In this document: positions 4,498 through 6,711 of the stretch, one piece after another
How positions within the stretch are numbered: position 1 is the first letter of the stretch
Layout: each line of letters opens with the position of its first letter
Source: Verrucomicrobiota bacterium
GTDB lineage: Bacteria > Verrucomicrobiota > Verrucomicrobiia > Limisphaerales > AV2
Reading direction: 5' to 3'
Assembly: GCA_003218935.1 (NCBI GenBank)
Contig: QHPA01000104.1
Coordinates: forward strand, 1 to 16,744
DNA: 16,744 nt
Translations under genes and position numbers: made by a program
The notes under the pieces: generated by a model
The model's input: only the letters and a program-made list of their open reading frames with translations
What the model was told of the DNA's origin: nothing
Database searches by the model: none

Positions 4498-4716
4498 CTA
4501 GCTCTCGATCACGTTGATCTCGACCGGCTCCACGCTGATACCCAGTTTCTCCAGCCATTGGATGGCGGCTTTGATCTCGCTGCGCTGGCCTTCCAGTTCG
4601 AGGCAAACGACACCGATTTCATCGGTCACGCTGGCCTGTCGAACATTGGTGACGACGTTGAATTTGTGGCCCACTTCCCAAACCACCGGGTTTTTGATCA
4701 ACTTCGGCGGATACAT
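4498..4716 (-). CDS. NIL-domain protein
   Basis: The 72-residue protein is almost entirely one NIL domain, a small ferredoxin-like alpha/beta fold. NIL domains are also found at the C-terminus of methionine ABC-transporter ATPases and with ferredoxins in homocysteine-forming systems. Features are LIKNPVVWEVGHKFNV, then NVRQASVTDEIGVVCLELEG and an IKAAIQWLEKLGISVEPVE helix-strand end. It has no Cys cluster. It is the third gene after the SAM riboswitch, behind the ThrC-like enzyme and the sulfur carrier, which suggests a regulatory or sulfur-handling role in the same pathway (inference). The ATG at 4716 is preferred. A longer frame starting at 4845 reads straight through a palindromic repeat (4756-4827), so its extra residues are probably not protein. 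Confidence 0.8.
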   Translation of the reverse strand: MYPPKLIKNPVVWEVGHKFNVVTNVRQASVTDEIGVVCLELEGQRSEIKAAIQWLEKLGISVEPVEINVIES

Positions 4717-4755
4717 CAGCCACAAACGCGTTTTTTGCCGATATTTCGCAGCCGC

Positions 4756-4827
4756 GTAGCCGCCGACGTAAGGAGGCGGATAGAAATGAGGATCACCGGC
4801 GGTCCACCTCCTTGCGTCGGTGGCTAC
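4756..4827. repeat. Long imperfect inverted repeat upstream of NIL gene
   Basis: Two 25-base arms (4756-4780 and 4803-4827) match in reverse complement with three mismatches, around a 22-base loop. The arms carry aaggagg and its complement cctcctt, so the element contains Shine-Dalgarno-like and anti-Shine-Dalgarno-like stretches. There is no U-tract, so it is not a standard terminator. It sits in the moaD-like/NIL gap. Confidence 0.8.
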
Positions 4828-4866
4828 AGGCTGTCTTGATTTCATGCGGAGTATGAAATAACCACG

Positions 4867-5142
4867 CTAGCCTCCGGCAATTGCCGGGATGATGCTGATT
4901 TCGTCGCCATCCTTCACCGGCGTTTGCTGGTTTTGCAGGAAACGGATGTCCTCTTGGTTCACATAGACATTCACAAAGCGACGCACCGCACCCGTGTCGT
5001 CGAGCAGCCGTTCCTGAATGCCGGGAAAGCGCCTCTGCAACTCGGCAATCGCCTCGCCGATGGTGGCGGCGTTGACTTCCACCAGCTCCTCGTTGTTGGT
5101 CAACTTGCGGAGTGGCGTTGGGATGCGGACTTTCTTTGGCAT
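4867..5142 (-). CDS. MoaD/ThiS-family sulfur-carrier protein
   Basis: The 91-residue ubiquitin-like protein begins MPKKVRIPTPLRKL and continues with the helix ATIGEAIAELQRRFPGIQERL. It has a VNVYVNQEDIRFL strand and closes with KDGDEISIIPAIAGG. The C-terminal Gly-Gly is what is adenylated and converted to a thiocarboxylate in this family. MoaD serves molybdopterin, ThiS thiamine, CysO cysteine synthesis in Mycobacterium, and a related carrier methionine synthesis in Wolinella. No molybdopterin or thiamine gene is nearby. It lies 35 bases after the ThrC-like gene, so a role as sulfide donor to that PLP enzyme is likely (inference, as with CysO-CysM). The activating ThiF/MoeB-type enzyme is not in the window. 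No Shine-Dalgarno is visible; the leader is AT-rich. Confidence 0.9.
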   Translation of the reverse strand: MPKKVRIPTPLRKLTNNEELVEVNAATIGEAIAELQRRFPGIQERLLDDTGAVRRFVNVYVNQEDIRFLQNQQTPVKDGDEISIIPAIAGG

Positions 5143-5177
5143 AAATTAAATTTCAAATCGTATTCGCACAGACATTT

Positions 5178-6413
5178 TTATGCGGTCACCCTGTCTTCAT
5201 GCGCCAGCAACGCTTCGAACTCGCGCAGGCTCGGCTTGATCTCGCGAGTGCGGCCCACCTGGCCGACCACGGCGTCGAGCGTCTTCAAACCGTTGCCGGT
5301 GACGCAGAGCACCACCGAATCATTCGCTGGAATTCTGCCGGAGACAATCAGTTTCTTCGCCACGCCGACCGTCACGCCGCCCGCGGTCTCGGCGAAAATA
5401 CCTTCGCACTCGGCCAGCCACCGGATACCCTCGCGCACTTCGTCATCGGTGACGTCGTCTGCCGCGCCGCCGGTCTCCTTCATGACTTTGAGCGCGTAGA
5501 AACCATCCGCCGGCGTGCCGATGGCGAGGGACTTGGCAATCGTGTTCGGCTTGACTGGCTTGAAGAAATCGAGGCCGGCCTTTTGCGCGGTCGAAATCGG
5601 CGCGCAACCCGTCGCCTGCGCGCCATGCACGTGATACGTCGTTTCGGGCGCGAGGCCGAGTTTTGTGAATTCCTGGTAGCTCTTCTGGACTTTGGTGAGC
5701 AACGAACCGGAAGCCATCGGCACAACGGTGTGCTGCGGCACCCGCCAGCCGAGTTGCTCGATAATCTCAAAGCCCATGCTCTTCGAGCCTTCCGCGTAAT
5801 AAGGCCGCATGTTGACGTTCACAAAGGCCCAGCCGTATTTGCCCGCGATTTCCGCGCAGAGCCGGTTCACTTCGTCGTAGTGGCCTTTGATCCCGATGAC
5901 TTCCGCGCCGTAAACCAGCGAATTCACCACCTTGCCTTGCTCAAGGTCGGCCGGAATGAAGACATAGGCTTTCAGTCCGGCCGCGGCGGCGTTCGCGGCG
6001 ACGGAGTTGGCGAGATTGCCGGTCGAAGCGCAGGCGACCGTGGTGAAACCCAACTCGCGCGCGCGACTCAAGGCCACGCTGACGACGCGGTCTTTGAACG
6101 ACAGCGACGGATAATTGACCGTATCGTTCTTTACCCAGAGCTCGCGCACGCCGAGTCGGCGCGCGAGCCGGTCGGCTTTGATGAGCGGCGTGAAACCGAC
6201 TTGAAAACCGACGGTCGGTTCGCCCGCCACGGGCAGCAGTTCGCGGTAGCGCCACATCGTTTGCGGTCGCGATTGGATGACCGGCCGAATCAGGGACTGC
6301 TTGATGCGGTTGTAGTCGTAAACAACTTCGAGCGGTCCGAAGTCAAATTCGCACACGTGCGTGGCGGTGAGCGGATATTCGCGTCCGCACTCCCGGCACT
6401 TGAGCGCCTTCAT
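5178..6413 (-). CDS. thrC: Threonine-synthase-like PLP enzyme; candidate homocysteine synthase
   Basis: The 411-residue fold-type II PLP enzyme would normally be named threonine synthase (O-phosphohomoserine to threonine). A zinc-ribbon-like start has Cys6-x-x-Cys9 and Cys21, but the expected fourth Cys is Asp (CEFDFGPLEV). The Schiff-base lysine is in SLSFKDR (Lys107), the substrate/phosphate loop is ASTGNLANS (129-137), and a glycine-rich end TAGGVTVG follows. Context argues for sulfur metabolism: the gene is first behind a SAM-I riboswitch and is followed by a thiocarboxylate-type carrier and a NIL protein. I infer it may use O-phosphohomoserine or a similar substrate with carrier-bound sulfide to make homocysteine; plain threonine synthase remains possible. 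The ATG at 6413 has AGG nearby; an ATG seven codons upstream (6434) is an alternative. Upstream codons beyond that fall in the riboswitch terminator region. Confidence 0.88.
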   Translation of the reverse strand: MKALKCRECGREYPLTATHVCEFDFGPLEVVYDYNRIKQSLIRPVIQSRPQTMWRYRELLPVAGEPTVGFQVGFTPLIKADRLARRLGVRELWVKNDTVNYPSLSFKDRVVSVALSRARELGFTTVACASTGNLANSVAANAAAAGLKAYVFIPADLEQGKVVNSLVYGAEVIGIKGHYDEVNRLCAEIAGKYGWAFVNVNMRPYYAEGSKSMGFEIIEQLGWRVPQHTVVPMASGSLLTKVQKSYQEFTKLGLAPETTYHVHGAQATGCAPISTAQKAGLDFFKPVKPNTIAKSLAIGTPADGFYALKVMKETGGAADDVTDDEVREGIRWLAECEGIFAETAGGVTVGVAKKLIVSGRIPANDSVVLCVTGNGLKTLDAVVGQVGRTREIKPSLREFEALLAHEDRVTA

Positions 6414-6490
6414 GAAACCTGCGTTTTTTTCCATAACAGTGTCGTCTGGCAGGGTAGCGCTGCGACGCGTCCCTGCTACTCTTCGAGTCA

Positions 6491-6524
6491 ATAAAAAACC
6501 CCTTCTCATCAGGTCGAGAAGAGG
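6491..6524 (-). terminator. Intrinsic terminator of the SAM riboswitch expression platform
   Basis: On the minus strand CCTCTTCTC (6524-6516) pairs with GAGAAGGGG (6507-6499, one G-U pair) around an 8-base loop, followed directly by six T (6498-6493). An alternative antiterminator is also visible: GAGAAGAG (6545-6538) can pair with CTCTTCTC (6523-6516). SAM-bound P1 would use up the 5' part of that strand and favour termination. Confidence 0.9.
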
Positions 6525-6541
6525 TGAAAAACGCGCGCTCT

Positions 6542-6658
6542 TCTCATCTTTCCCAAGCCAATCGCTTGAGCTGGAATTGGCACCTGGTCATTGCAGATCG
6601 CGCTGCAACCGGTTGCCGTGGTGTCATCGGGCCAGTCCCTCGACCACTCTGAATGAGA
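6542..6658 (-). promoter_or_regulatory. SAM-I (S-box) riboswitch aptamer
   Basis: Minus-strand sequence matches the conserved S-box core. P1 is TCTCAT (6658-6653) with ATGAGA (6547-6542). Then come CAGAGTGGTCGAGGGA, CTGGCCCGATGA, CACCACGGCAACC, a P3 hairpin TTGCAG/CTGCAA, the GGTGCCAATTCC junction, and a P4 stem CAAGC/GCTTG. These are hallmark S-box elements, including the kink-turn region and the pseudoknot-forming loop. It is the leader of the ThrC-like, sulfur-carrier and NIL genes. With the terminator just downstream it should switch the operon off when S-adenosylmethionine is abundant. A small reading frame crossing it (6544-6858) is not a gene. Confidence 0.95.
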
Positions 6659-6682
6659 CTCGTTCCATCAACGGATGCGGAT

Positions 6683-6711
6683 AGATTGATTTTTAATCCT
6701 GCAACTGTCAA
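6683..6711 (-). promoter_or_regulatory. Candidate promoter of riboswitch operon
   Basis: A perfect TTGACA (-35, 6711-6706) is followed after 17 bases by CAATCT (-10-like, 6688-6683). Transcription would start near 6675, just ahead of the aptamer. The -10 is weak. Confidence 0.5.

Follow-up and report, generated by a model that had tools for sequence, protein, structure and literature searches.

A SAM-riboswitch operon of Verrucomicrobiota with a MetM-type enzyme, a MetO-type carrier and a NIL-domain protein: a candidate system for homocysteine synthesis

Introduction

The closest described relative of the operon analysed here is found in Streptomyces, where MetM is a homocysteine synthase that uses O-phospho-homoserine (Hasebe et al. 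2024, Appl Environ Microbiol 90:e01247-24, as cited in PMC12172450) and metO encodes a putative sulfur carrier. According to the same source, an S-adenosylmethionine (SAM) riboswitch lies upstream of metM in S. albulus and is lacking in Microcystis (PMC12172450). Our subject is an operon of similar outline in a Verrucomicrobiota bacterium, on contig QHPA01000104.1 of assembly GCA_003218935.1 (positions 1 to 16,744); this whole stretch of 16,744 nucleotides is called the window below. The operon consists of a SAM-I (S-box) riboswitch, a metM-type gene, a metO-type gene and a gene for a stand-alone NIL-domain protein. In Streptomyces, MetO reportedly acts as a thiocarboxylate donor. Like the Streptomyces system, the window combines a ThrC-like pyridoxal phosphate (PLP) enzyme, an adjacent carrier gene and an upstream SAM riboswitch with a predicted place at the O-phospho-homoserine branch point, and a Nonomuraea locus (L036) has the same anatomy of S-box (68.7 bits), metM and metO. 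Unlike the Streptomyces-type pair, the window has a NIL gene after metO, co-occurring almost strictly with metM in the order, whereas the Nonomuraea pair is without NIL.

Other carrier-linked systems resemble the locus in part. The HcyS-HcyD-HcyF-MetY route of Wolinella reportedly passes carrier-bound sulfur into homocysteine synthesis, and the residues past the Gly-Gly of the Wolinella carrier are removed before charging. Shared features are the carrier-bound sulfur predicted here, the tails found past the MetO Gly-Gly in other phyla and a JAMM-type gene at one related locus (L095). Unlike in Wolinella, the acceptor enzyme is a fold-type II MetM (PF00291) rather than a PF01053 MetY, and the MetO of the window already ends at Gly-Gly; a Wolinella-type MetY route was set aside because of the PF00291 assignment and because the genome holds only weak PF01053 matches. 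The Mycobacterium CysO-CysM-MoeZ-Mec system (PMC3227635) is alike in its CysO-like Gly-Gly carrier, in its ThiF-rhodanese type of E1 (which charges CysO in mycobacteria and is also encoded by a congener of our bacterium) and probably in a phosphorylated acceptor. It differs in that the window enzyme belongs to the ThrC/MetM line, with predicted SAM control and no JAMM among the three operon genes. Finally, the DUF39 plus NIL/ferredoxin route (PMC5764234) also places a NIL domain in a homocysteine system. This route was rejected because DUF39 (PF01837) occurs in 0 of 116 genomes of the order; likewise, the NIL protein of the window was rejected as a ferredoxin because Pfam shows no ferredoxin domain in it.

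The original prediction for this locus was that the ThrC-like enzyme makes homocysteine from O-phosphohomoserine (or a similar acceptor) and carrier-bound sulfide. This is not new in its core, because the MetM/metO route has already been reported for Streptomyces; our search of a limited paper collection found none joining O-phosphohomoserine with a thiocarboxylate, and the word NIL is absent from the accessible text of PMC12172450. The present analysis adds the NIL partner, its distribution and fusions, and evidence that the classical route is largely replaced across one order. The riboswitch, the terminator, the gene identities, the MetM grouping, the co-occurrence and the replacement of the classical route are computed results. 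From these we infer, with a probability of about 0.83, an operon of the MetM/MetO type for homocysteine synthesis under repression by SAM, together with its substrate, sulfur donor, E1 partner and direction of control.

Layout of the operon and its leader

The elements of the operon are as follows:

6659-6541, minus strand: SAM-I (S-box) aptamer (Rfam RF00162, 86.3 bits against a gathering threshold of 44.4, E 1.2e-19)
6525-6498, minus strand: intrinsic terminator, the expression platform; a stem of nine pairs (one G-U), then six T
6434-5178, minus strand: metM-type gene (PF00291, 228 bits); the open frame reaches upstream to 6509
5142-4867, minus strand: metO-type gene (PF02597, 71 bits); 91 amino acids, ending ...IIPAIAGG
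4845-4498, minus strand: stand-alone NIL-domain gene (PF09383, 38.8 bits against a cut-off of 24)

All of them lie on one strand in the order S-box, terminator, metM, metO, NIL, with 35 nt between metM and metO and 21 nt between metO and the NIL gene. These positions are consistent with the span 4498-6711 first assigned to the operon, and the scores bear out its proposed make-up: an S-box and terminator directly upstream of a threonine-synthase-like gene, a MoaD/ThiS-like gene ending in Gly-Gly, and a NIL-domain gene in third place. The RF00162 match is the only S-box found in the 3.83-Mb, 82%-complete genome (G000).

In the minimum-energy folds of the leader, the 5' arm of the terminator, CCTCTTCTC (6524-6516), pairs with the downstream GAGAAGGGG. 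Read by sequence, the same arm has an alternative partner, GAGAAGAG, which contains the 3' side of aptamer helix P1 (6548-6541 and the following bases). The minimum-energy folds show the terminator pairing only, and the alternative pairing with P1 was not seen among them. Such a pairing with the 3' strand of P1 could give the usual SAM-off layout, in which SAM binding ends transcription. Terminator-like sites as such are not above chance by bare count in the region (4 versus 3.1 in shuffles). A hairpin followed by a T-run within about 118 nt after the aptamer is present in 21 of 39 related loci versus 16 of 780 two-mer shuffles, the set comprising loci with an S-box at most 500 nt upstream, so that L095, with its S-box farther off, is left out.

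Identity of the MetM-type enzyme

The first gene encodes a fold-type II PLP enzyme, a threonine-synthase homologue with an N-terminal Zn-ribbon-like CxxC...C, which is 53.8% identical to the protein of the Nonomuraea S-box-metM-metO locus. A PF05810 (NinF) match on the CxxC region (27.6 bits, cut-off 27.5) was taken as chance or as Zn-ribbon-like, and a search for relatives in viral contigs found none. In a tree built by a quick method from 60 of 120 MetM rows, with long branches flagged, a branch supported at 99 joins the window protein with 59 further MetM-type proteins, among them those of Nonomuraea, cyanobacteria and Nitrospirota, and sets the MetM-type proteins apart from 21 next-nearest PALP proteins; Nonomuraea sits on a long branch, and its join to the cyanobacteria is supported at 90. 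This split is partly expected, because proteins were initially labelled MetM by how well they scored against the window. A metO neighbour is a mark of MetM independent of that label, and metO stands beside 0 of the 21 next-nearest homologues (flanks of about 1.5 kb).

A second distinguishing mark lies in a P-x-R-x-E-G motif, whose Arg is found in three solved threonine synthases and in the conventional threonine synthase of the window's genome (L001). It is replaced by Tyr213 in the window and by Tyr in 120 of 120 MetM rows, an alignment from which the window copies L003 and L005 were left out and in which near-copies from two collections remain. Of the 21 rows in the comparison group, 10 have Arg here and 11 have Thr; its members L016-L035 are next-nearest PALP proteins rather than proven threonine synthases.

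The enzyme might nevertheless be a second threonine synthase under SAM control, with MetO and NIL serving something else. It scores 270.5 bits against TIGR00260 (threonine synthase), above the cut-off of 167.1, its best structural matches are threonine synthases, and threonine synthase activity in vitro has been reported for a homologue from Microcystis (PMC12172450). TIGR00260 cannot separate MetM from threonine synthase, because the MetM-type proteins of Nonomuraea and L013 also pass its cut-off (3 of 3 MetM-type proteins scanned). A conventional thrC adjoins homoserine dehydrogenase in the same genome (hom-thrC, L001), and each of the 10 MetM genomes of a phylum sample holds a second ThrC-like gene. 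Set against a second threonine synthase are also the invariant Tyr at the motif Arg, the presence of metO next to MetM at 76 of the 80 best loci (out of 585) and the tendency of the operon to replace metB/metY-family genes across the order. We consider this alternative very unlikely.

Co-occurrence and replacement of the classical route across the order

The order was sampled with 116 genomes from 81 genera, several families being sampled more than once. MetM is present in 75 of them; in this count G287 (209.6 bits, 32% identity) is excluded, the two fragments of G257 are counted once, and the genes of G220 and G248 are partial. An S-box was found in 74 genomes and a NIL gene in 77. Of the 75 MetM genomes, 72 carry an S-box, which in 71 of them precedes MetM by 70-250 nt, and 74 carry NIL, which in 70 follows MetM within its contig at 340-1767 nt. 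The 41 genomes that lack MetM include 2 with an S-box and 3 with NIL. Among these exceptions, the operon is cut by a contig end in G304, G195 and G226, with a metM or metO fragment at the adjoining end, and the S-box of G267 is the last element of its contig. The three MetM genomes without an S-box are G248 (metM at the contig start), G286 and G273, in a search whose stricter filters lost weak matches; the S-box of G300 lies at the end of another contig.

By these counts the arrangement of S-box, metM, metO and NIL is far beyond chance, confirming that the three genes behind the S-box are strongly linked, and the S-box marks essentially one operon in the order. One MetM genome has a second S-box, away from metM (L186, G217:C57:5489-5602).

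Strong PF01053 matches (E below 1e-80), the mark of the classical metB/metY family, occur in 43 of the 116 genomes: 28 of the 41 without MetM versus 15 of the 75 with it. The full tally is 60 genomes with MetM only, 15 with both, 28 with strong PF01053 only and 13 with neither (Fisher p 6e-7, a value that overstates independence because related genomes and families were sampled repeatedly). A looser limit of 1e-50 gives 18 with MetM and 28 without. Among the 73 genomes that are at least 90% complete, 9 have both, 43 MetM only, 17 PF01053 only and 4 neither; G195, counted in the last class, in fact has NIL and part of metO at the end of a contig. Through the order, the MetM operon tends largely to replace the classical homocysteine route. 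In G197, G223 and G287, all at least 90% complete, neither MetM, strong PF01053 nor DUF39 was found.

The window's own genome agrees with this pattern. Its PF01053 matches are weak (best E 7.6e-7, none of metB/metY/metZ strength), and DUF39/COG1900 is absent as in the rest of the order, with the proviso that at 82% completeness another homocysteine pathway gene could be missed. MetX-type matches of 349.8-449.8 bits, below the curated cut-off of 500, occur in 4 of 20 relatives, all without MetM, and the 11 relatives with MetM (own genome included) score at most 25 bits. Of the genes that the proposed route would draw on elsewhere, a ThiF-family E1 is present in 11 of 12 relatives (the one examined, L191 of a congener, is ThiF plus rhodanese) and MetH in 17 of 20; a GHMP kinase of the window's genome scores 48.7 bits against TIGR00191. 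Taken with the separate hom-thrC and the linkage of the three genes, these gene contents support the predicted homocysteine synthesis, whose chemistry at this locus would follow that of the Streptomyces enzyme. As far as genome data reach, the original prediction withstood the refuting conditions set for it.

Distribution beyond the order

The wider sample comprises the best 80 of 585 confirmed loci from named genomes, covering 12 phyla, with 5 loci to which no phylum is assigned; two loci (L108, L132) hold masked stretches, and some come from genomes that are also in the order sample. Counting metO when within reach on the same strand and an S-box when at most 500 nt upstream, metO is present at 76 loci, NIL at 54, an S-box at 39 and all three at 24. 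Verrucomicrobiota loci have an S-box in 25 of 28 cases and NIL in 19 of 28, and NIL accompanies all 17 Nitrospirota loci. The 7 cyanobacterial loci have neither, and the Planctomycetota have the S-box (2/2) and no NIL (0/2). All three elements are found in Pseudomonadota of the Mariprofundus type (3/3) and in NC10 (2/2), the NC10 order being S-box, NIL, metM, metO.

Among eight loci analysed in detail, a ThiF-family E1 follows metO in L114, L118 and L137 (by Pfam) and in L104 and L115 (by eye), a TusA gene or domain is present in L118 and L114, and a JAMM-type (PF14464) gene lies upstream of metO in L095. The last of these, labelled Nitrospira (L095:1414-5660), has an S-box some 1 kb before metM, followed by NIL, a gene resembling cysteine synthase, JAMM and metO.

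The MetO carrier

MetO is a ThiS/MoaD/CysO-like protein whose best solved relative is CysO of M. tuberculosis (3dwg, E 2.9e-20). A search for the carrier in plasmids gave 14 records, none of which contributed to the analysis. By pattern match, Gly-Gly is the very end of MetO in all 25 named Verrucomicrobiota and all 7 cyanobacteria, but in just 3 of the 17 Nitrospirota and 1 of the 6 Omnitrophota. Loci of the latter two phyla (e.g. L114, L116, L118, L137) mostly have from 1 to about 20 residues past the Gly-Gly, and a Verrucomicrobiota MetO (L010) has a tail of 7. By analogy with the Wolinella carrier, such residues would need removal before the glycine is charged. MetO and NIL are fused in one frame with an internal Gly-Gly at L096:5140-5769, L099:5261-5782 and L145:3032-3472 (checked by Pfam in L096 and L099), which implies cleavage before the carrier is used; none of the PDB relatives of the fusion cover its NIL half.

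The kinship with CysO raises the idea of a cysteine-forming CysM-CysO analogue acting on O-phosphoserine, to which we give hardly any credence. The cysM model reaches 43.7 bits on the enzyme against a cut-off of 394.2, an ordinary cysteine synthase is already present in the genome (L002), and SAM-I control points to methionine, as does the inverse relation of the operon to PF01053 and MetX-type genes.

In a further alternative, the MetM-type enzyme would take free sulfide, leaving MetO as an accessory or as a donor for another pathway. In its favour, fold-type II sulfhydrylases commonly use sulfide, and the genome has an ordinary cysteine synthase. The adjacency of MetO in 76 of the best 80 loci, across many phyla, speaks against this, as do the E1, TusA or JAMM genes suited to a carrier that some operons elsewhere add, and the donor role that MetO is said to have in Streptomyces. 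Use of free sulfide is therefore an improbable reading, if not quite so remote as a second threonine synthase, and we prefer carrier-bound sulfur as the likely donor.

The NIL-domain protein

In fold, the NIL protein comes closest to the C2 domain of MetN, the methionine importer, with a crystal soaked in selenomethionine among the top matches. The Asn aligned with MetN residue 295, which we take to have a role in methionine binding, is kept in at least 90% of NIL proteins, and the Arg two places after it (N-x-R) is near-invariant. Unlike the C2 domain of the MetNI importer, the NIL protein of the window is stand-alone and carries this Arg. We propose that it is most likely a feedback sensor of methionine or a related amino acid that would damp MetM/MetO at the protein level, which is the weakest part of our explanation.

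A broader version of this proposal, which we offer tentatively, is that NIL may be a dedicated third component of MetM/MetO in many phyla, an ACT-like methionine sensor that would bind MetM or MetO and provide fast feedback beneath the slow layer of the SAM riboswitch. Fused lineages would cut the carrier free, and two 0.9-Mb genomes would represent natural loss of both layers. These single-contig genomes (L008 in G057, L009 in G036) have kept metM, metO and a ThrC-like gene; neither shows an S-box at the locus or a NIL gene closer than about 10 kb.

Rather than a sensor, NIL may be a partner of MetO in docking or maturation, for instance one that holds or shields the thiocarboxylate tail. The fusions that place NIL directly behind the internal Gly-Gly of the carrier, and the residues often found past Gly-Gly in Nitrospirota and Omnitrophota, fit this role; the MetN C2 fold, the conserved Asn and the existence of MetM/MetO pairs without NIL do not favour it. 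It is a possibility to be taken seriously, short of an even chance.

Other genes in the window

Immediately downstream of the operon, an IHF/HU-type gene lies at 4088-4480 (minus strand), its open frame beginning some 18 nt past NIL; genes like it occur within the sampled stretch of 16 other loci. A histidyl-tRNA synthetase gene at 2551-3981 (minus strand) has an in-frame low-complexity insert with RGTRNAERGTQ and PDPRPQPP repeats. On the minus strand, 10769-13099 and 14481-16730 encode two long proteins with similar HExxHxxxxxHHGD metalloprotease-like motifs. A smaller gene comes after each of them (9934-11070 and 13211-14608), in what looks like a duplicated two-gene unit.

A working model and its implications

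In the model that we favour, MetM would take O-phospho-L-homoserine from the threonine branch, eliminate phosphate on PLP and add sulfur that MetO brings as a thiocarboxylate at its C-terminus. Recharging of MetO would fall to a MoeZ-like E1 of the ThiF family with a rhodanese domain, encoded elsewhere, and methylation of the homocysteine to MetH. High SAM would close the P1 helix, so that the terminator forms and the operon is turned off, and the NIL protein, sensing methionine or a related amino acid, would damp MetM/MetO at the protein level.

Several observations weigh against this model. The Microcystis homologue, 51.6% identical to MetM, acted as threonine synthase and threonine deaminase in vitro; in a MetM-like assay it gave an unidentified peak only, and methionine was not raised (PMC12172450). 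Our MetM grouping is made with metO-linked genes of Nonomuraea and cyanobacteria in place of the characterised S. albulus MetM. The S-box is missing within 500 nt upstream in all 17 Nitrospirota loci (one lies 984 nt upstream in L095), and three loci (L008, L009, L011) of the ten in the phylum sample are also without one. NIL stands beside MetM in 0 of 7 cyanobacteria and 0 of 2 Planctomycetota, is not at the Nonomuraea locus, and is missing beside MetM at 9 of 28 named Verrucomicrobiota loci, some of the NIL-less loci ending early; since it is absent beside MetM in several groups, NIL is not needed everywhere. A strong PF01053 gene accompanies MetM in the 15 of 75 genomes given above (18 at 1e-50). 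E1 and MetH were both not found in the window's own bin, which we read as bin incompleteness because four congeners have both, and no homoserine kinase was confidently identified, TIGR00191 being above its cut-off in 2 of 20 relatives.

Because all three scanned MetM-type proteins pass TIGR00260, pathway tools are likely to report methionine gaps and a spare threonine synthase in genomes of this kind. Our analysis offers a consistent MetM/MetO assignment over 12 named phyla (on the best 80 of 585 loci). Together, metM, metO and NIL form a small testable set for the control of a carrier-fed homocysteine synthase, as predicted here, at the O-phospho-homoserine branch point.

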